From assembly GCF_004118265.1 (NCBI RefSeq), contig NZ_SDHW01000002.1, forward strand, positions 682,001 through 746,000: a stretch of DNA of 64,000 nt, given 5' to 3'. Origin of the DNA: Lacibacter luteus (GTDB lineage Bacteria; Bacteroidota; Bacteroidia; Chitinophagales; Chitinophagaceae). Every line of letters begins with the position of its first letter. Within the stretch, counting starts at the first letter, position 1. Position numbers and translations under genes: made by a program. Positions 17,642 through 26,246 of this stretch are shown one piece after another. A model generated the notes under the pieces. That model saw nothing but the letters and a program-made list of their open reading frames with translations. It was not told the origin of the DNA and did no database searches.

Positions 17642-19327
17642 CTATACTAAAATGGGGTTGGCTTTGTTGAGTAAACACTTTTCGGTTGTGCAGGTTTTCC
17701 ATAAATAATAACCACCGGAAAGGTTGGCAACTGCTTCGTATCCGTTTTGGCGCAGAATACGTTGCGCCAGGTAACCACGCAAGCCTGCTTCGCAATAGAT
17801 ATAAAGCTTTTTATCTTTTGGAATTTCATCCAGTCGCTCTCTCAACTCATCAACCGGAATATTGATAGCATCATCAATGCTACCTGCTTCAAATTCATCT
17901 TTACGGCGAACATCGATAAGCAGATCGCCGGATTGCAGTTGCTCCAGTTCATTCCAGTAAAATACACGTAAACGATCGAGTAGAATATTTTCTGCAACAA
18001 AGCCGGCCATGTTTACAGGATCTTTTGCAGATGAATAGGGAGGTGCATACGCATGTTCAAACTCAATAAGATCATAAACCGTTTTTCCTTGTTTGATGTA
18101 GGAAGCAAAAACATCGAGTCGTTTATCTACACCATCATAACCTGCAATTTGTGCACTTAACAGTTTACCCTCTTTCGGCGTAAATGCAAGTTGAATGGTC
18201 ATTTGTTTTGCACCGGGATAATAACCTGCATGTGATGCATTATGTGTGGTGGAAACAATATGCTCAATTCCGGCAGCTTTTAAATGTTTTGATGCAGTGC
18301 CGGTTGTACCCACCGTCATGTCGAACACTTTTACAATAGCTGTATTAATGGAACCTTTGTACGAGCGAACATTACCAAGGGCCACATTGTCTGCACAAAT
18401 ACGGCCTTGTTTATTCGCTGGTCCCGCCAGGTAAGTGATCATTGATTGATGCGTGATGGGATTTTCAAATTCAATGGCATCACCAACAGCGTAAATATCC
18501 TGATCGGAGGTTTGTAAAAATTCATTTACCTGTATACCTTTTGCCGGGCCGAGTTGTAAACCGACCATTGCTGCCAGCCTTGTATCGGGTCGCACACCAA
18601 TGGAAAGTATCACCACATCAGCAAATAACACTTCGCCATTGTTCAATGCCACTTCAATATGCTCCTGTGTTTTTGTAAAACCGGTAACGGCCGTATTTAA
18701 ACGAAGTTTTACTTTTTTTGAACGGATATGTTGTTGTACAAATGCAGCAACAGGATAATCAACCGGCGCCATTACCTGATTGATCATTTCTATAACGGTT
18801 ACATCCAAACCCAGCGCATGAAAATTTTCTGCCATCTCCAGGCCAATAAAACCTGCACCGATAACAACGGCTTTGCTTACATGCTTTTGCTGCACATAAG
18901 CTTTAATATAATCGGTGTCGTTTACATTACGCAATGTAAAAATGCCTTCGCTGTTTATACCCGGTAATGGCGGACGAACAGGTTCTGCACCGGGAGAAAG
19001 AATCAGTTTGTCATATGTTTCTTCGTATACTTCTTGGGTCGTTTGTTTGTGTGCTGTAATTTTTTTTGCAGAAGGATTGATGGCAATTACTTCGGTTGAG
19101 ATGCGTACATCAATATTAAAACGTTTGTTGAAGGCGGCAGCAGTTTGTACAAATAATTTATTCCGGTCTTTAATAATATCGCCGATATAATAAGGCAAAC
19201 CACAATTGGCATAAGAAATATATTCTCCTTTTTCGAAAATGATGATCTCTGCCTGTTCATCCAGTCTTCTTAATCGTGCTGCTGTACTGGCGCCACCTGC
19301 AACTGCTCCAACAATAATGTACTTCAT
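17642..19327 (-). CDS. CoA-disulfide reductase/NADH oxidase fused to a rhodanese domain
   Basis: A 561-aa FAD-dependent pyridine nucleotide-disulfide oxidoreductase. The start at 19327 (MKYIIVGAVAGGAS) begins exactly at the FAD-binding motif. The active site is SYANCGLPYYIG with Cys42, the single-cysteine signature of CoA-disulfide reductase/persulfide reductase. The NAD site is VVIGAGFIGLEMAE. The C-terminal ~90 residues are a rhodanese domain with YCEAGLRG (Cys about 512). Such fusions (CDR-RHD/NsrH-like) reduce CoA persulfides or polysulfides. An FNR-like operator and -7 box lie upstream. Confidence 0.93.
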   Translation of the reverse strand: MKYIIVGAVAGGASTAARLRRLDEQAEIIIFEKGEYISYANCGLPYYIGDIIKDRNKLFVQTAAAFNKRFNIDVRISTEVIAINPSAKKITAHKQTTQEVYEETYDKLILSPGAEPVRPPLPGINSEGIFTLRNVNDTDYIKAYVQQKHVSKAVVIGAGFIGLEMAENFHALGLDVTVIEMINQVMAPVDYPVAAFVQQHIRSKKVKLRLNTAVTGFTKTQEHIEVALNNGEVLFADVVILSIGVRPDTRLAAMVGLQLGPAKGIQVNEFLQTSDQDIYAVGDAIEFENPITHQSMITYLAGPANKQGRICADNVALGNVRSYKGSINTAIVKVFDMTVGTTGTASKHLKAAGIEHIVSTTHNASHAGYYPGAKQMTIQLAFTPKEGKLLSAQIAGYDGVDKRLDVFASYIKQGKTVYDLIEFEHAYAPPYSSAKDPVNMAGFVAENILLDRLRVFYWNELEQLQSGDLLIDVRRKDEFEAGSIDDAINIPVDELRERLDEIPKDKKLYIYCEAGLRGYLAQRILRQNGYEAVANLSGGYYLWKTCTTEKCLLNKANPILV

Positions 19328-19353: not shown

Positions 19354-19396
19354 CAAAAATAGAGGAAGCGGTAGCTGCAGTTGGTGATTCTGATCA
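19354..19396 (-). promoter_or_regulatory. Predicted Crp/Fnr-activated promoter of the CoA-disulfide reductase gene
   Basis: On the minus strand the palindrome TGATCAGAATCA (19396-19385) is followed, after exactly 23 nt, by the -7 box TATTTTTG (19361-19354). The centre-to-start distance is about 41.5 bp, as in class II Crp/Fnr activation. No -33 TTG is visible. The same arrangement recurs upstream of two other genes of the locus. Confidence 0.65.
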
Positions 19397-19557
19397 TACA
19401 AAACACTGTTATTGGAAAGCTTGTGGTATGTACTAAAATTCACACGGGGTAAGGCTTTCAGTATTTTTTGTTTGTGACAAAAAATGAAGATTATTGAAAC
19501 ATTTTTTTAATCCGCAACTTGGATTGTAATAAAACGGAGTAAAACACATAACAACTT

Positions 19558-19579
19558 TTAACCCGTAGAAGCGGGTTAA
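19558..19579 (-). terminator. Hairpin after the DsrE-like gene
   Basis: An 8-bp stem TTAACCCG (19558-19565) / CGGGTTAA (19572-19579) with a 6-nt loop, 33 bp downstream of the DsrE-like stop codon. There is no long T-run, so termination is uncertain. Confidence 0.45.
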
Positions 19580-19611
19580 CAATAAAAGGAATACAAAGTA
19601 TTTATGAAAGA

Positions 19612-20016
19612 CTATTCAGCTTTAATATAACTCCAGCCTTCACGCTGTTTGCCTGCAATTTCTAAAATAGAAACCGGCACTATAACCGCTTCAGGAATTA
19701 CACGGTCTTTACTGATGTTGCGGCTTTTCAGCGAGTTGTTGCACACTGCAATTACAACACCTCTTTTATGCGCCTGTAAAATCTGTTCTTTAAAATATCC
19801 TGTGTCTTTTAAAACAGCAAAGATGGCAAGGCTATGAAACACTACTTCTATTTTTGTATCGGGTGCGGCAGTAAGTACATTATTGATTTGCCGAAACAGG
19901 ATACGTTGATGAACCGTATCGCCTGAAGCAATTTCCCAAACAATTTTTTCCTGTGCTTTTAATTGCGATGCGCCTGCGAGTAAAAATGAAACAAACAACA
20001 GTCTTAATCCTTTCAT
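19612..20016 (-). CDS. Periplasmic DsrE-like sulfur-relay family protein
   Basis: A 134-aa protein with a signal peptide (hydrophobic stretch ending ASQLKAQ, about residues 5-22) and a DsrE/DsrF-like fold. The conserved cysteine is in VVIAVCNNSLKSR (Cys92), the position that carries persulfide sulfur in this family. Export to the periplasm fits a role beside the TsdA-like cytochrome, whose gene is 15 bp upstream on the same strand. It is likely the last gene of the sulfur operon. Its acceptor is unknown. Confidence 0.82.
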   Translation of the reverse strand: MKGLRLLFVSFLLAGASQLKAQEKIVWEIASGDTVHQRILFRQINNVLTAAPDTKIEVVFHSLAIFAVLKDTGYFKEQILQAHKRGVVIAVCNNSLKSRNISKDRVIPEAVIVPVSILEIAGKQREGWSYIKAE

Positions 20017-20031
20017 GGTTTTCTTTTCAAT

Positions 20032-21039
20032 TTAGTGCTTACCGGTGGGTTTATGATTTTTGTTTTGCTCTTTGTAGGTTTTAATTGCTGCAAACGGCCC
20101 GTATTTATGCTGCTCTTCTGTAAACGGATCGGCATAGGGCCCAAACGGATGATCAATTGGTTTCTTTGAAATATCGGGCCAGTCGCTTTTTAAATCTTTT
20201 GCTGGCCTTGGTTGCGAGTTTACAAATGCGGCTACATCCCATGCTTCTTCTGCACTTAACTGCGGTGCATGATAGTCGGCGCCAAACGGCATATTGTTTT
20301 TTACATAACCTGCAAAGCGTGATAAGCGAAACAAACCTGCGCCAACATTATAACTGTTGTTACCCCATAATGGTGGATAGGTATATGCATTACCATCAAC
20401 ATGCAGTTGTCCTTCGCCGTTAGTACCATGACAGGTTTGGCATTTCTGTACGTACACTTCTTTCCCTTTTTGCGGATTGGCAGCACGATTGAGATAAGGC
20501 AGATCAACAATACCCGAGCCTTTTGGTTTTTCGCCACGCTTTACATCTTCGCCCAACCATTTTATATAAGCGTAGATAGCCTGCATTTCTTTACTGCCTG
20601 TATCAAGTGCTCTGCCGTTAAGACTGCGTTCAATACAATCGTTCACCCGTTTGTAAATGGTTTCTATACCTCCCGAACGATCTCTGAATTTTGGATAAGT
20701 TGAATATACGGCACCATAGTTATTACCCCAGGGTCTTGTGCCGGCATCTAAATGACAGTTCTGGCAGTTCATACCATTACTTATCTGTAATACAGAACCC
20801 TTTGGTCCGAGGTATTTTGATGTGTTTGCTATTAACTCACGACCGTACCAGATAAGTTCACCGTCTTTACGGGAGTAATAAGGTATTTGATTTACAGAAG
20901 CACCTACCCACATCGATTGCTGCATACTTGAATCTGAGGCAATATTTTTTTCATCGCCCTGCGACGAACAACCTGTTTGTGTTGCAGCAATCAATGCAAC
21001 CAGCAAAATAAATAGCAGTATAATGTTTCGGCTGTTCAT
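20032..21039 (-). CDS. Thiosulfate dehydrogenase-like dihaem cytochrome c (TsdA-like)
   Basis: A 335-aa exported protein with an N-terminal hydrophobic segment and a lipobox-like ATQTGC (Cys24). It has two cytochrome c domains: haem 1 at CQNCH (Cys92/Cys95/His96) and haem 2 at CQTCH (Cys200/Cys203/His204). Between them, RVNDCIERSLNG (Cys135) matches the cysteine that ligates the catalytic haem in TsdA/SoxA-type cytochromes. TsdA oxidises thiosulfate to tetrathionate or does the reverse. The gene lies 15 bp downstream of the YeeE/YedE pair. A related role on another sulfane-sulfur compound cannot be excluded. Confidence 0.85.
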   Translation of the reverse strand: MNSRNIILLFILLVALIAATQTGCSSQGDEKNIASDSSMQQSMWVGASVNQIPYYSRKDGELIWYGRELIANTSKYLGPKGSVLQISNGMNCQNCHLDAGTRPWGNNYGAVYSTYPKFRDRSGGIETIYKRVNDCIERSLNGRALDTGSKEMQAIYAYIKWLGEDVKRGEKPKGSGIVDLPYLNRAANPQKGKEVYVQKCQTCHGTNGEGQLHVDGNAYTYPPLWGNNSYNVGAGLFRLSRFAGYVKNNMPFGADYHAPQLSAEEAWDVAAFVNSQPRPAKDLKSDWPDISKKPIDHPFGPYADPFTEEQHKYGPFAAIKTYKEQNKNHKPTGKH

Positions 21040-21054
21040 ATAACCATTAACTGA

Positions 21055-21600
21055 TTAATGAGGTAAACGTTCTCTTATTTTACCATAAACCCATGTGCCT
21101 GCAATAGCACTAAGCAAAGTTACAATTACTGCAGTTGCACCGCTACCTATTTGTGCAAATAACGGACCCGGACAAGCACCTGTAATAGCCCAGCCTAAAC
21201 CAAACAGCAGTCCGCCATAGATTTGCCCTTTATTGAATTTCTTATCTACAAATTCGATTGGCTCGCCGTAAATGGTTTTTATTTTGAATTTTTTAATGAT
21301 GAGTACCGAAATAAGGCCAACCACTACTGCCGAACCAATTACACCGTACATGTGAAAACTTTGCAGGCGAAACATTTCCTGTATGCGGAACCAGGAAATG
21401 ATCTCGGCTTTTACAAACACAATTCCAAACAGCAAGCCAACAGCTGCATATTTTAAATTATACCACCACGGGTGTTTTAATTCCGATTCGTTAAAGCAAA
21501 CAGAATCGAGTGAGCGCATTTCGAAATCGGTATTCTGCTCAAGGAATTTGTGATGCTTTTTTTCAAGTTCAACTTCCTGCACTATTTCTTTTGATTCCAT
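21055..21600 (-). CDS. YeeE/YedE family half-transporter (second)
   Basis: A 181-aa membrane protein with a ~55-aa charged cytoplasmic N-terminus and four predicted membrane segments. It carries the family motif ITGACPGPLFAQIGSG, whose Cys is characteristic of thiosulfate/sulfur-compound carriers (TsuA/YeeE, PmpAB). It is about half the size of full YeeE and is paired with another half 10 bp upstream, so the two probably form one transporter. Likely cargo is thiosulfate or a sulfane-sulfur carrier (inference from family and context). Confidence 0.88.
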   Translation of the reverse strand: MESKEIVQEVELEKKHHKFLEQNTDFEMRSLDSVCFNESELKHPWWYNLKYAAVGLLFGIVFVKAEIISWFRIQEMFRLQSFHMYGVIGSAVVVGLISVLIIKKFKIKTIYGEPIEFVDKKFNKGQIYGGLLFGLGWAITGACPGPLFAQIGSGATAVIVTLLSAIAGTWVYGKIRERLPH

Positions 21601-21610
21601 TTGTTTGCAA

Positions 21611-22180
21611 TTAAAGGTTTAAGAGAAAAGGTAAAAGAAGATTGGCCATAATAAAACCACCAACCATAAACGAAATGGTTGCTACAAGCGAAGGCACTTG
21701 CAGGTTCGATAATCCCATAATGGCATGACCACTTGTACAACCACCTGCATAACGTGTTCCAAAGCCAACAAGGAAACCGCCACCAACCATCAGCAGTAAT
21801 CCTTTTACAGAAAACAAACTTTCCCAATTAAATAATTGAATGGGCACCAGTTTGCTGTAATCATCAATACCGTATTGCGATAACTCTGCTGCAAGCTTTG
21901 GGTTTACCTGCATTGGTTCAGGGTTTTGCAATAACCAGAACGCAAGAAAACCGCCCACTGCAATGCCTGCAACAAAAAACAGGTTCCATGCTTCCTTTTT
22001 CCAATCATATTTAAAGAAAGGAATGTTGGCAGGTATACAGGCTGCACAAATATGACGCAGCGAAGAAGAGATGCCGAATGTTTTGTTACCAATAAGCAAA
22101 AGCGTAGGCACAATTAATCCGATTAACGGACCTGCAACGTACCAGGGCCATGGTTGTTTTATAAACTCAATGAAACTCAT
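21611..22180 (-). CDS. YeeE/YedE family half-transporter (first)
   Basis: A 189-aa membrane protein with four to five membrane segments. The signature [18 protein letters not shown] contains the conserved Cys of the YeeE/YedE family. It directly precedes the second half-transporter gene (10-bp gap) and follows a small membrane protein gene by 95 bp. The split arrangement matches PmpA/PmpB-type pairs seen next to rhodanese and MBL genes. It probably works with its partner in moving thiosulfate or related sulfur across the inner membrane. Confidence 0.88.
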
Positions 22181-22275
22181 GAGAGATTGGTTTTTGTGAT
22201 TGCCGGAATAACAAATAATTTACAGATTGCAGGTATCTTCAAAAAAAGGAGAGCAACAGGCGATTCCTGTTTTAA

Positions 22276-22491
22276 TCAGGAATGTTCTTCTGTTGTTTTT
22301 TTACCATTGGGTTGAAACATGCTGTTTACAATTGTACCCATTACTGCAAAATAAACAATACTGCGTACGGGGCTCGATGTAATTAAACAGGTTCCGTTAC
22401 AACCAAAATATTTCCAGTAAAAGTAACCGCCGATTGCACCAATTGCTGCACCCGGCAAATACCAAACAGATTTTTTAAGAAACGTTTTCAT
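22276..22491 (-). CDS. Small cysteine-containing membrane protein (DUF6132-like)
   Basis: A 71-aa protein with two hydrophobic segments (around residues 10-28 and 45-60) separated by YFGCNGTCLITSSPVRS. It resembles the short DUF6132-type proteins found in Bacteroidota sulfur loci; that label is from memory and should be checked. The paired cysteines at the membrane edge could handle sulfane sulfur (inference). It is tightly linked to the next small gene upstream (3-bp gap). Confidence 0.7.
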   Translation of the reverse strand: MKTFLKKSVWYLPGAAIGAIGGYFYWKYFGCNGTCLITSSPVRSIVYFAVMGTIVNSMFQPNGKKTTEEHS

Positions 22492-22494
22492 TGT

Positions 22495-22698
22495 TTACCG
22501 ATGCATTTTTTGTTGCTGAACAGGAATGTTGCAGGAACTGTCCATACAACCAATATTAAGAAATGCCTGTACCAATAATACCGCACCAATTACCCACAAC
22601 AAAGGAGTTGGCGATGCGATGCCTTGCACAATTGCTACAACACCCATTAGCAAACGCAGTAAGCGCATGCCTGTCCATTGTTTAAAGTAGCTGCGCAT
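22495..22698 (-). CDS. Small membrane protein with C-terminal cysteine motif
   Basis: A 67-aa protein with two hydrophobic segments (residues about 13-30 and 31-48), then NIGCMDSSC. It is similar in layout to the YgaP/DUF2892-like membrane proteins that accompany rhodaneses. It starts 3 bp after the rhodanese stop codon, so translation is probably coupled. Its function is unknown, but every neighbour in this run handles sulfur. Confidence 0.7.
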   Translation of the reverse strand: MRSYFKQWTGMRLLRLLMGVVAIVQGIASPTPLLWVIGAVLLVQAFLNIGCMDSSCNIPVQQQKMHR

Positions 22699-22701
22699 TG
22701 C

Positions 22702-23007
22702 TTATATTTTTTGTTGTAAACTCATCCAGGAACCACCGTTATGAGCTTCAATGCCGGCGCCTTTTAAAACAGAAGCGGCAGAGCTGCTGCGCATACCACT
22801 TGCACAGCAGGTAATAACAGGCTTACCTTTTTTCTTTAGATCAGTAATGTGCTGACGGATACTGTCAACAGGAATATTCACCGACCCTTTGATGTGCCCA
22901 CCTCTATATTCACCGGGTGTGCGTACATCAACAATCAACGCCCCGCTGCTGAGTAAAGCTTTGTAATCGGTTGCGGGGCCAAACAGATTTTTTAGTATTG
23001 ATAACAT
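22702..23007 (-). CDS. Single-domain rhodanese
   Basis: A 101-aa rhodanese-like domain. It has DVRTPGEYRGGHIKGSVNIP (residues 27-46) and the active-site loop CCASGMRS with catalytic Cys68 in CxxGxR form, preceded by another Cys67. There is no signal peptide, so it acts in the cytoplasm, moving sulfane sulfur from a donor such as thiosulfate or glutathione/CoA persulfide to an acceptor. It is in one run with the MBL-rhodanese protein and the small membrane proteins. Confidence 0.92.
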   Translation of the reverse strand: MLSILKNLFGPATDYKALLSSGALIVDVRTPGEYRGGHIKGSVNIPVDSIRQHITDLKKKGKPVITCCASGMRSSSAASVLKGAGIEAHNGGSWMSLQQKI

Positions 23008-23035
23008 TGTCTCTTAATTTTTTAAATCTACAAAT

Positions 23036-23064
23036 AACAGGAGGAGAACAAGCCTCCCCCTGTT
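23036..23064 (-). terminator. Hairpin between the MBL-rhodanese and rhodanese genes
   Basis: AACAGGAGG (23036-23044) pairs with CCT/CCTGTT in 23053-23064 with a 3-nt bulge; a shorter GGAGG/CCTCC pairing is also possible. On the minus strand it is followed by AT-rich sequence without a long T-run. It may partly terminate or process the operon mRNA. Confidence 0.4.
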
Positions 23065-23083
23065 CCTTAACCATCACCACTGT

Positions 23084-24505
23084 TTATAAAAGAATTGAAG
23101 GACAAACGTAATCGGTAATGTTGAAGTTGCCGTTTTCTTTTAGTGCTTTAAAACCGCCACGTACATCAATAAGGTTATCGTATCCACGTGCACGAAGAAT
23201 AGAGGCAAAGATCATTGAACGGTAACCGCCGGCACAATGCACATAAGTTGGTTTGTTTTTATCAACCTTGAGCATACTGTCGTTAATAAAATCGAGCGGT
23301 GCATTTTCCACACCGTTCAGGTGTTCGCTTACATACTCACTGTTTTTGCGTACATCAAGTATGCTTATGTGCTGATCTTTGTTTTGCAGATCGGCCAGTT
23401 CATTAACCGATACACGTTTAATTTCATCTACTTCTTTACCTGCAGCTTTCCATGCATTAAAGCCGCCTTTCAGATAACCGAGTGAATAATCGTAACCAAC
23501 ACGTGCCAGTCTTGTTACCACTTCTTCTTCACGACCTTCGTCTGTTACCAACAAAATTTCCTGTTTTACATCGGGTATCATTGCACCAACCCATGGAGCA
23601 AAACTTCCATCAATACCAATGTTGATGGAGTTGGGTACAAAACCTTTGCTGAAAGTTTCTGCATCTCTTGTATCAAGAATAAGTGCACCTGTTTCGTTGG
23701 CTGCAGTTTCAAATGCTTCCGGACTTAAAGCTTGTGTACCACGTTTCAATACTTCTTCAATACTGTCGTAACCATGAATGTTCATCATTACATTTAATGG
23801 AAAGTATTGAGGAGGCGCCACCAAGCCTGTAGTAACTTCTTTAACAAACTCTTCTTTGGTCATGTTTTCACGCAAAGCATAGTTGCTTGCTTTTTGATGA
23901 CCAAGTGTATCGGAAGTTTCTTTGCTCATGTTTTTACCGCAGGCACTGCCGGCACCATGTGCAGGGTATACAATGATCTCATCTGCCAATGGCATGATCT
24001 TGTTACGCAATGAATCGAACAGGTGACCTGCTAATTTATCCTGTGTAAGATCGGCCACAACTTTCTGTGCCAGATCGGGGCGGCCAACATCACCAATGAA
24101 CAAGGTATCGCCTGTAAAGATGGCAATGTCTTTTCCGTTTTCATCTTTTAACAGGTAGCAGGTACTTTCCATTGTGTGGCCGGGTGTATGTAACACTTTA
24201 AATGTAAGCTTACCTACTTTCAACTCTTCGCCATCCTGTGCTGCATAAAACTCGAAGTCGGGTTTTGCATTTGGCCCGTACACAATTTTTGCACCTGTTT
24301 CTTTTGCAAGATCAATATGGCCGCTTACAAAATCGGCGTGGAAATGTGTTTCAAAAACATATTTGATTTTTGCATTACTGCGTTCTGCTTTTTCAACATA
24401 AGGTCTTACCTCACGCAAGGGATCAATTACTACAGCCTCACCATCGCTTTCGATGTAGTAAGCACCTTGTGCCAAACAGCCTGTATAGATCTGCTCAATT
24501 TTCAT
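23084..24505 (-). CDS. MBL-fold persulfide dioxygenase-like protein with two rhodanese domains (CstB-like layout)
   Basis: A 473-aa protein. The start at 24505 (MKIEQIYTGCLAQGAYYIE) matches family N-termini; an upstream ATG adds only unlike residues. The N-terminal metallo-beta-lactamase fold has THFHADFVSGH (His54, His56, Asp58), HTPGHTMES and FTGDTLFIGDVGRPDL, as in ETHE1/persulfide dioxygenases. The first rhodanese domain (about 270-365) lacks an active Cys (VTDEGREEE). The second (about 370-465) has YVHCAGGYRSM. This MBL / dead RHD / active RHD order is that of CstB, which converts persulfide to thiosulfate. It has its own promoter. Confidence 0.92.
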   Translation of the reverse strand: MKIEQIYTGCLAQGAYYIESDGEAVVIDPLREVRPYVEKAERSNAKIKYVFETHFHADFVSGHIDLAKETGAKIVYGPNAKPDFEFYAAQDGEELKVGKLTFKVLHTPGHTMESTCYLLKDENGKDIAIFTGDTLFIGDVGRPDLAQKVVADLTQDKLAGHLFDSLRNKIMPLADEIIVYPAHGAGSACGKNMSKETSDTLGHQKASNYALRENMTKEEFVKEVTTGLVAPPQYFPLNVMMNIHGYDSIEEVLKRGTQALSPEAFETAANETGALILDTRDAETFSKGFVPNSINIGIDGSFAPWVGAMIPDVKQEILLVTDEGREEEVVTRLARVGYDYSLGYLKGGFNAWKAAGKEVDEIKRVSVNELADLQNKDQHISILDVRKNSEYVSEHLNGVENAPLDFINDSMLKVDKNKPTYVHCAGGYRSMIFASILRARGYDNLIDVRGGFKALKENGNFNITDYVCPSILL

Positions 24506-24618
24506 GTGTATATTTTTTGTTGTTTTTTTGCCACATGTTATTCGCCCAAAAATGATCATCGCTATTGGTATAAATCAGCTCAATCATTTTTATGGCTTAT
24601 TTCATGTGTATATTTTTT
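24501..24618 (-). repeat. Direct repeat duplicating the start region of the MBL-rhodanese gene
   Basis: TTCATGTGTATATTTTTT occurs at 24501-24518 and again, identically, at 24601-24618. The first copy contains the start codon. The second gives, on the minus strand, ATG AAA TAA at 24605-24597 in the predicted leader. Confidence 0.8.
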
Positions 24619-24646
24619 TGCTTTTTTACTATTTGATTGAATGATA

Positions 24647-24689
24647 CAAATTTGAATTTTCTTTTAACTCCGGAGTATGACTTTTGTCA
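24647..24689 (-). promoter_or_regulatory. Predicted Crp/Fnr-activated promoter of the MBL-rhodanese gene
   Basis: On the minus strand the palindrome TGACAAAAGTCA (24689-24678) is followed after exactly 23 nt by CAAATTTG (24654-24647), a near match to TAnnTTTG. The spacing equals that at the two other operators of the locus. The predicted transcript start is near 24642, giving a leader of about 135 nt. Confidence 0.6.
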
Positions 24690-24715
24690 CAGAAGAGCAG
24701 GAACAATAAAGAGTG

Positions 24716-25513
24716 CTATTTAATAAATAGTTCTTTCACAATTATGTAAATGCCCATTACCAATACAAACCAACCGAACCATTTTTTGAGTTTATCGCCC
24801 GATACTTTTTTGCTGAGAGCACTTCCTATAAAAATGCCTGTAATAGCTAATGCCGTAACAAGGAATAATAATTGCCAATCGATAACCTGATGACCGATAT
24901 CGCCAAGAAAACCAATTAAAGATTTTGCTGCAATTATAAGCAGCGATGTACCTACGGCCTGTTTCATTGGGAGCTTGCTCAGTAATACCAAAGCCGGAAT
25001 AATGAGGAAACCGCCGCCGGCACCAACTAAACCCGTTAAGATGCCTACCACTGTTCCTTCAAGGAGTATAAAGGGGTAGTTAAACTTCTGCTTACCGTTG
25101 TTGCCGTTACCATCTTCTGTTTTGCCTTTGATCATGGAGTACGATGCAAACACCATCAACACTGCAAAAAGCAGCATTGTTAAAATCGGTTTATTGATAA
25201 CGATGTTACCGATCGAAAATAATTCCTGCGGTATAGCAGGAACAATAAATTTCCTTGTAGCATATACCGCTGCAATAGCCGGTATACCAAAAATTACAGC
25301 TGTTTTAGTATTTACAAGTCCTTGTTTGTATTTGGGAAATGCACCAACAAGCGAAGTAGAACCAACAATAAATAAAGAATAAGCAGTTGCCAGCACAGGC
25401 TCCACGCCAAGGAGGTAAACAAGTACGGGTACAGTTAAAATAGAACCGCCGCCACCAATTAGTCCTAACGATATACCAATAATAACAGATGCGAGATAGC
25501 CGATTATTTCCAT
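24716..25513 (-). CDS. TauE/SafE family sulfite/sulfonate exporter
   Basis: A 265-aa inner-membrane protein with about eight membrane segments and the TauE/SafE repeats: GLIGGGGSILTVPVLVYLLG near the N-terminus and GLVGAGGGFLIIPALVLL around residues 161-178. Members export sulfite, sulfoacetate or related anions. Within this locus it would remove sulfite formed from persulfide oxidation (inference). The predicted -7 box ends only 4 nt before the start codon, so the mRNA may be leaderless. An FNR-like operator lies just upstream. Confidence 0.9.
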   Translation of the reverse strand: MEIIGYLASVIIGISLGLIGGGGSILTVPVLVYLLGVEPVLATAYSLFIVGSTSLVGAFPKYKQGLVNTKTAVIFGIPAIAAVYATRKFIVPAIPQELFSIGNIVINKPILTMLLFAVLMVFASYSMIKGKTEDGNGNNGKQKFNYPFILLEGTVVGILTGLVGAGGGFLIIPALVLLSKLPMKQAVGTSLLIIAAKSLIGFLGDIGHQVIDWQLLFLVTALAITGIFIGSALSKKVSGDKLKKWFGWFVLVMGIYIIVKELFIK

Positions 25514-25517
25514 GCTG

Positions 25518-25560
25518 CAAATGTGCTGTGCTTTTTCGCAGCCAACAGTGATTCAGATCA
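25518..25560 (-). promoter_or_regulatory. Predicted Crp/Fnr-activated promoter of the TauE/SafE gene
   Basis: On the minus strand TGATCTGAATCA (25560-25549; flanked to give GTGA-N6-TCAC) is followed after exactly 23 nt by CACATTTG (25525-25518), a near match to TAnnTTTG. The box ends 4 nt before the ATG at 25513. Confidence 0.65.
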
Positions 25561-25572
25561 CATAGCTGAGAA

Positions 25573-26220
25573 TTACAGATTTTTTAATTCAATGATATTG
25601 CGGTTGAGCTTTACCATATCTTTCTGCTCCATTTTTTTCAAAAGTCTTGAAATTACCTCACGTGAAGTGTTAAGTTCGTTAGCAATTTCCTGGTGACTGA
25701 TGTTGAGCATTGTTGTTTGCTGTGCTTCTTTAGCACGCTTCAGGTAAAACTCCAAACGCTCATCCATGCTGCGGAAAGCAACATTATCAAGTGTAGCCAA
25801 TAATTCATCAAAGCGTGTGCGGTAGGTTTCTATAACAAATTGGTACCAGCTTTTAAATTTACTCATCCATTCGCTCATAATATCTACCGGCACCATCATT
25901 ACATCTGTTTCGGATACCGTTTTTGCCATAATGGGGCTGGCTTCGTGTTTGGCTGCACATACAAGCGACAATGCACAGGCTTCGCCGGGTTTTAAATAGT
26001 ACATCAGAAATTCATTGCCATCTTCATCTTCCCGGTATATTTTAATTAAACCGCTTAACACCAACATTGTGCTGCGGATGTACTGGCCTCTTCGCATCAA
26101 TACTTCGTTTGCGGGAAAGGTTTTAAATGCTCCTTGCTCTTCAATTTCGCTTACCAGGTTCTCTTCAAATAAAGGATAACTTTTGCGTAGTAAATCGTCC
26201 TGTACCTGCTGTATTGCCAT
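25573..26220 (-). CDS. Crp/Fnr family transcriptional regulator
   Basis: A 215-aa protein with an N-terminal cyclic-nucleotide-binding-like beta barrel (about residues 15-115), a long dimerisation helix and a C-terminal winged helix. The recognition helix NTSREVISRLLKKM has Glu188, Ser191 and Arg192, the ExxSR triad by which FNR reads TGA half-sites. No N-terminal Fe-S cysteine cluster is present. GEACALSLVC contains Cys82 and Cys88, which could form a disulfide or polysulfide switch (inference). An in-frame ATG at 26226 is an alternative start. It heads the sulfur locus and is the probable regulator of the three operators described. Confidence 0.92.
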   Translation of the reverse strand: MAIQQVQDDLLRKSYPLFEENLVSEIEEQGAFKTFPANEVLMRRGQYIRSTMLVLSGLIKIYREDEDGNEFLMYYLKPGEACALSLVCAAKHEASPIMAKTVSETDVMMVPVDIMSEWMSKFKSWYQFVIETYRTRFDELLATLDNVAFRSMDERLEFYLKRAKEAQQTTMLNISHQEIANELNTSREVISRLLKKMEQKDMVKLNRNIIELKNL

Positions 26221-26246
26221 ATGCAAATGTTGAAATTTTATTTGGA

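Follow-up and report, generated by a model that had tools for sequence, protein, structure and literature searches.

Class II promoters of Escherichia coli carry an operator for CRP or FNR centred at −41.5 in place of the −35 element, the FNR operator having the form TTGAT-N4-ATCAA. The same Crp/Fnr family includes NtcA, the cyanobacterial nitrogen regulator, which binds GTA-N8-TAC near −41.5 and has 2-oxoglutarate as its ligand, together with the thiol switches CprK and FLP and the heme sensor HcpR. Regulators that respond to sulfane sulfur, such as SqrR/BigR, CstR and FisR, are of the ArsR, CsoR, sigma-54, MarR and LysR types. In Bacteroidota the polymerase box differs from the textbook one, and to our knowledge few activator-dependent promoters have been charted there. 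Here, we examine a sulfur locus in a 64-kilobase (kb) stretch of Lacibacter luteus DNA (contig NZ_SDHW01000002.1, positions 682,001 to 746,000), termed the window, in which a gene for a Crp/Fnr-family regulator (25573..26226, minus strand) stands at the head of genes for sulfide and sulfane-sulfur handling. We propose, with a probability of roughly 0.85, that the product of this gene would act as a class II activator of the locus, its binding being predicted from three operators set at a constant distance from the promoter boxes that follow them.

The three operators lie on the minus strand, and each shortly precedes a sulfur gene. Operator 1, TGATCTGAATCA (25549..25560; extended form TGTGATCTGAATCAC), is upstream of tauE (ATG at 25513), operator 2, TGACAAAAGTCA (24678..24689), is upstream of a gene for an MBL-fold protein with rhodanese domains (MBL-rhodanese; ATG at 24505), and operator 3, TGATCAGAATCA (19385..19396), is upstream of a CoA-disulfide reductase gene (ATG at 19327). 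Each is followed after 23 nucleotides (nt) by a −7 box, namely CACATTTG (25518..25525), CAAATTTG (24647..24654) and TATTTTTG (19354..19361), so that palindromes and boxes alike stand exactly where the original prediction had placed them. Mapped starts in Flavobacterium psychrophilum put TAnnTTTG at −12 to −5, according to the accessible part of PMC9723704; with the boxes set in this way, the 23 nt between operator and box run from −35 to −13, and the palindrome is centred at −41.5, the class II position that had been claimed. The predicted transcript starts are then 25513 (the A of the tauE ATG, giving a leaderless message), 24642 and 19349. The fixed spacing is that of a class II Crp/Fnr promoter, with the value of −41.5 depending on the PMC9723704 map and on starts that are predicted here.

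The pattern TGAN6TCA-N23-YANNTTTG occurs three times in the window, always in this locus, whereas 100 shuffles contain it 0.06 times on average and never more than once; by itself this figure is weak, because the pattern was derived from the sites that it counts. The half-pattern TGAN6TCA is indeed common by chance, as had been stated, with 21 found and 19.95 expected rather than the suggested 16 or so. Across the whole 5.07-Mb genome the strict pattern gives eight matches against three for a backwards control, and the relaxed pattern likewise gives eight against three; in both cases three of the eight are the locus sites. Only these three are convincing in this genome, the five others of the relaxed pattern being near the control level. 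Among the extra matches, the neighbours of five (L001, L002, L003, L007 and L008) include nothing sulfur-like. A wide regulon in this genome is unsupported by either pattern. The short palindrome TGATN4ATCA, with 170 matches genome-wide against 18 for its control, is uninformative and is not the consensus.

The evidence that carries the proposal comes from relatives. Of 59 related genomes searched, 53 gave a regulator match (E ≤ 0.001), which in many is no more than a distant paralogue. Thirteen loci of the genus (L009–L021, the window's genome included) were compared, one further genome of the genus (G004) having a distant paralogue only; a broader set of 80 named loci, amounting to 1.45 Mb, comprises the best 80 of at least 585 relatives that encode the regulator, drawn from Lacibacter cauensis, other Chitinophagaceae, many Flavobacterium, Pedobacter, Dyadobacter, Pontibacter and unclassified Bacteroidota. 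When the genus loci are oriented, operator 1 keeps its position in all 13 and lies 23 nt from the tauE box in each, while the sequence of the spacer varies. In the 80 named loci, TGAN6TCA followed by.A..TTTG is found 57 times at a spacing of 23 and on average 2.28 times at other spacings from 0 to 60, forming a single spike, and the palindrome with its N23 box is thus conserved beyond the genome in which it was noticed. Ten control motifs occur 0 to 6 times at spacing 23. Two of the controls peak elsewhere (GATN6ATC with 16 and 15, TGAN8TCA with 15); repeated related loci can yield modest peaks of this kind, none as high as the spike at 23. The genes downstream of the 57 sites are tauE in 13 cases and MBL-rhodanese in 23 (36 of 57), and otherwise include CoA-disulfide reductase (the element precedes this gene in L056 and L057 as well as at operator 3), YeeE/YedE, rhodanese, OsmC-like and sulfide:quinone reductase-like genes, these names being given by reading the sequences. 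A few of the 57, for example in L080 and L090, stand before seemingly unrelated genes and may be chance matches.

Relaxing the pattern, by steps chosen after looking and with the other spacings as their control, brings in further promoters. A first relaxation (TGAN6TYA with box.A..YTTG) finds the element before 54 of 63 tauE genes and 23 of 65 MBL genes. Many Flavobacterium promoters have TGAC...GTTA or TAAC...GTCA, and if T(G/A)AY-N4-RT(C/T)A is allowed the element stands at spacing 23 before 55 of 63 tauE and 55 of 65 MBL genes (means at other spacings 0.11 and 0.07, respectively); in the same scan it precedes 4 of 35 genes for the first YeeE/YedE half, 8 of 34 single-rhodanese genes and 1 of 79 regulator genes. 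The spacers of the 84 promoters in the first relaxed set fall into 50 clusters at 60% identity (25 clusters for the 54 tauE promoters, 22 for 25 MBL promoters), and it follows from so many clusters that the length of the spacer is conserved without its sequence. The earlier judgement that three intergenic sites with one spacing are not due to chance is borne out by this single spike and these diverged spacers.

Among the loci L009–L031, the MBL element is present in 11 of the 15 Glu-type loci (those whose regulator has glutamate at position 188 of the recognition helix, as described below) that include an MBL start, the window's own among them; seven loci have no MBL start and L027 is excluded as Val type. 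The element of L021 sits before a thioredoxin gene immediately upstream of the MBL gene. In L015 and L016 (before the thioredoxin gene) and in L028 (before the MBL gene) the palindrome is present and TTTG at 23 nt is absent; we regard these promoters as decayed or altered.

The regulator itself belongs to the Crp/Fnr family by Pfam domains cNMP_binding, HTH_Crp_2 and Crp (PF00027, PF13545 and PF00325, all above their cut-offs), its predicted fold matches CRP-family structures (best 4ev0), and its orthologues adjoin the same genes. The listed open reading frame begins with TTG at 26226; an ATG is found at 26220, from which residues are numbered here. The protein is neither CRP proper, having the cassette region GEACALSLVC with no aligned Arg-Ser and scoring 48.6 against 266 bits with the CRP equivalog model, nor FNR proper, scoring 30.6 against 228 bits with NF008365 and having invariant cysteines only at 82 and 88. 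These two residues form a Cys-x5-Cys (codons 25957..25977, minus strand), are the only cysteines of the window regulator, and align to the phosphate-binding cassette region of CRP. Neither residue varies among 23 diverse or among 39 Glu-type aligned orthologues, and the pair is present in all 80 named loci. In the predicted structure (mean pLDDT 86.1, pTM 0.63), Cys82 lies just before, and Cys88 inside, a short helix spanning residues 83–91. The closest solved sequence is PDB 3dv8, a Crp/Fnr-family regulator from Eubacterium rectale (E 2.1e-29) that has C-x5-C at the aligned place, but it comes from another phylum and is titled only as a putative regulator.

Replacement of the cAMP phosphate cassette by Cys-x5-Cys leads us to propose that the pair could be a thiol or persulfide sensor, an idea to which we give nearly even odds; that the signal would be sulfur is an economical guess made because of the gene content. 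The strongest competing explanation accepts the regulator and changes its signal: the cysteines would hold a metal, heme, an iron–sulfur cluster or a structural disulfide, or would sense oxygen or redox state generally. We consider this a serious possibility, if somewhat short of an even chance, for the cysteines are invariant and the family already offers the thiol switches of CprK and FLP and the heme sensing of HcpR. Against it, Cys-x5-Cys regulators adjoin sulfide-handling genes in Glu-type and Val-type loci alike, and two cysteines in the window protein are too few for an FNR-type [4Fe-4S] cluster within one monomer. Two natural variants bear on the sensor idea, the related Val-type regulators of L137 and L142, to which we return below.

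The core promoters are weak by the standards of the phylum. In 50 representatives, one for each spacer cluster and drawn from a search that required a degenerate nAnn(T/C)TTG box, the full TAnnTTTG is present in 5, and TTG anywhere from −39 to −24 also in 5, so that they depart from the consensus Bacteroidota sigma-A promoter (TAnnTTTG −7 box and −33 TTG) and the −33 element is absent or poor, as had been predicted. The box itself is nAnnTTTG, as proposed, except that its first base is not restricted to T or C (C 20, G 14, T 10 and A 6 of 50). In all 13 genus loci the tauE ATG begins 4 or 5 nt past TTTG, a distance from which the tauE mRNA of the genus is predicted to be leaderless or to have a one-base leader; of the 54 tauE promoters from named loci, four likewise have 4 or 5 nt here and the other fifty have 10 to 21. 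Like the class II promoters of E. coli, these have a palindromic operator at −41.5 with the half-sites of TGTGA-N6-TCACA (PMC2633013, in the part available), but they differ in the Bacteroidota nAnnTTTG box, in their sulfur targets, and in a regulator with neither a cAMP cassette nor the FNR-type N-terminal cysteine set.

An operator that overlaps the −33 region could also serve a repressor, with the neighbouring protein blocking polymerase there until a sulfur signal releases it, in the manner of SqrR, BigR and CstR. SqrR/BigR, CstR and FisR govern genes of this kind, in some cases by means of a cysteine pair, but they belong to other families and many are repressors, whereas the window protein is of Crp/Fnr type with the geometry of an activator. 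The accessible parts of PMC12423496, PMC10451225 and PMC11211675 describe several sulfane-sulfur regulators as repressors. We nevertheless judge repression unlikely here: a repressor should tolerate shifted positions, whereas here the spacing holds at exactly 23 nt, and core promoters that mostly have neither a −33 TTG nor a full −7 box suit dependence on an activator.

The operators had been described as FNR-like, and in this respect the prediction has to be revised. Over the 50 representatives the consensus is TGTGAY-N4-RTCAC, with G before TGA in 46, which rules out the FNR form and is instead CRP-like, the CRP consensus being quoted as TGTGAN6TCACA in the part of PMC2633013 available. The recognition helix (Arg187-Glu188-Val-Ile-Ser191-Arg192; codons 25645..25662, minus strand) fits the same revision: a Crp/Fnr gene does head the locus, and its supposedly FNR-like ExxSR is better read as RExxSR, the Arg and Glu of which align with those of CRP. 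The window regulator has SREVISR, and many more distant orthologues have SRVVISR, Glu188 being replaced by Val; we refer to these as Val type. The Val-type operator came to light through L033, which held the single site obtained when 11 loci were searched for six-base arms at the right distance. When a Val-type query was run against 295 genomes of the class, 172 matched, and the best 30 of the 172 were taken as loci; beside Val-type regulators (30 typed loci) TAAC-N4-GTTA is found at the same spacing of 23, with 18 sites compared with a mean of 0.27, and the genes that it precedes include tauE, MBL-rhodanese and YeeE/YedE. Val at this helix position is shared with NtcA in the alignment, and the Val-type operators, TGTAAC-N4-GTTACA, fit the form of the NtcA site; NtcA differs in its ligand and its genes, and the window protein itself is Glu type.

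When all 64 half-sites are screened at the 23-nt spacing, the top rank goes to TGA in the 101 Glu-type loci (84 against 3.45) and to TAA in the 32 Val-type loci (18 against 0.80). Mixed sites also occur beside the Glu type (TGA/TTA 41 against 1.55 elsewhere, TAA/TCA 45 against 1.15), with TAA/TTA found only twice. The TAA/TTA element is present in 18 of 33 Val-type and 2 of 101 Glu-type loci (Fisher p 1.7e-11, a value that is not a count of events as the loci are related). Twenty larger stretches behave similarly, with 4 TGA sites against 0.16 in eight of Glu type and 7 TAA sites against 0.35 in twelve of Val type; several stretches of both types are without the element. A sulfide:quinone reductase-like gene, named from its sequence, has a TAA-type element in the Val-type L194 (6398, minus strand) and a TGA-type element in the Glu-type L055 (18668, plus strand).

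This covariation bears on a further alternative, that another Crp/Fnr paralogue, sensing oxygen, nitric oxide or cAMP, uses the sites and that the neighbouring gene is incidental. The genomes do carry several Crp/Fnr paralogues, and some Val-type loci have TGA elements, two of them before universal-stress-like genes, so that other TGA-binding members are probable. Yet the half-site of the operator tracks the helix of the neighbouring protein, and among 17 relatives without a close regulator orthologue, 16 of which have the MBL gene, the element precedes that gene in 0 of 16, most of these genomes having distant paralogues; only one of them has such a palindrome at any spacing. We therefore regard this explanation as very unlikely. 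Chance, or common descent without function, has a negligible claim: the pattern was indeed defined after looking and TGAN6TCA alone is at chance level, but the sharp lone spike at 23, the diverged spacers, and the same geometry at separate genes and with another half-site beside Val-type regulators mean that the relatives have already refuted it. The earlier description of a defined Crp/Fnr regulon with class II geometry is thus strongly supported by the conserved spacing, the absence of the element without a close orthologue, the weak core promoters and the centre at −41.5.

In the two Val-type loci L148 and L149, TGA-N6-TCA elements stand 23 nt from the box before genes whose sequences look universal-stress-like. 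Such elements suggest that a second Crp/Fnr activator uses the same geometry.

Several observations weigh against activation by the neighbouring regulator or against parts of it. The proteins are related and many come from Flavobacterium, so the counts are not independent events. In the DNA examined, 13 of the 101 Glu-type loci and 14 of the 32 loci of Val type are without the element, and a TGA element also occurs in 5 of 33 Val-type loci. Five of the 16 control genomes are less than 90% complete, and an orthologue may have been missed in them. A tree of 133 proteins requires only three changes of the Glu/Val trait, two of them forced by well-supported branches, and the rows that switch on their own (L027; L034, L038, L151 and L154) have no element in the surrounding 10 to 20 kb (L184–L188); with so few changes and element-free switched rows, the rule linking helix to operator depends for the most part on a single deep split. 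Two regulators from the 30 loci of the Val-type query, those of L137 and L142, have lost the second cysteine of C-x5-C.

Under the proposed class II activation, a dimer of the regulator would bind the TGTGAY-N4-RTCAC palindromes centred at −41.5, which would replace the −33 element, and once bound would recruit sigma-A RNA polymerase to the weak nAnnTTTG boxes of tauE, MBL-rhodanese and CoA-disulfide reductase. Its cyclic nucleotide (cNMP) pocket would have been rebuilt around the conserved Cys-x5-Cys, and reactive sulfur (persulfide or polysulfide) or thiol oxidation at the pair would be what most likely turns the regulator on, so that enzymes for handling sulfide and sulfane sulfur would be produced on demand. 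A more general version, which we put forward tentatively and at slightly under even odds, would have Crp/Fnr activators throughout Bacteroidota in which the pocket has been exchanged for a Cys-x5-Cys sulfane-sulfur sensor, operators at −41.5 serve sulfide and persulfide detoxification, and one helix residue (Glu or Val) chooses TGA or TAA at a fixed geometry; the E. rectale structure 3dv8 hints that such a sensor could predate the phylum.

Neither the family nor the geometry departs from the textbook; novelty appears to lie in the regulon, in the weak Bacteroidota box that goes with it, in the covariation of helix and operator, and in the cysteine pair of the ligand pocket. The open-access literature searched, with subscription journals mostly outside it, contains in the parts available no Crp/Fnr regulator of these genes in Bacteroidota and no Crp/Fnr persulfide sensor, an absence that is limited to that literature and is no proof of novelty. 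Open-access matches to the Fnr family together with persulfide were only iron–sulfur FNR proteins and Halomonas genomes, as judged from titles and the beginnings of abstracts. PMC12531629 treats class II activation in the Crp/Fnr family, and ‘Bacteroid-’ is absent from its main text as available. The promoter architecture can be recognized from sequence at single-base precision across several Bacteroidota families, tied to one regulator and to sulfide handling, and the locus forms a compact test bed in which a single protein, with two cysteines and one helix residue to alter, goes with three promoters lying within about 6 kb. Should sulfane sulfur prove to be what the cysteine pair senses, the Crp/Fnr family would join the reactive-sulfur sensors, as activators.

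All genes of the locus are on the minus strand. In order from the regulator they are tauE, for a sulfite exporter TauE/SafE family permease (24716..25513; PF01925, E 1.5e-44); the MBL-rhodanese gene, with an MBL fold and two rhodanese domains (23084..24505; Pfam Lactamase_B and Rhodanese); a single-domain rhodanese gene (22702..23007; PF00581), which likely shares a transcript with MBL-rhodanese; two halves of a YeeE/YedE-type sulfur transporter (21611..22180, Sulf_transp; and 21055..21600, Sulf_transp and DUF6691); a cytochrome c with a SoxA/TsdA-type domain (20032..21039; SoxA-TsdA_cyt-c and Cytochrome_CBB3); a DsrE-family protein (19612..20016; PF02635); and CoA-disulfide reductase with a C-terminal rhodanese domain (17642..19327; assigned by Pfam, with TIGR03385 at 466.3 bits, below its cut-off of 578.8). 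Enzyme functions are named by family only, because every NCBIfam model listed for the regulator and the three operator-bearing genes falls short of its cut-off; on that basis the MBL-rhodanese product is probably a persulfide dioxygenase/sulfurtransferase. A PHROGs scan gave a single weak match. The predicted leader of the MBL-rhodanese gene is 137 nt in the window, compared with a start 38 nt past the box in L. cauensis (L054), as if a stretch had been duplicated, and it contains a 28-nt direct repeat (24500–24527 and 24600–24627) whose copies are 86% identical and lie 100 nt apart.

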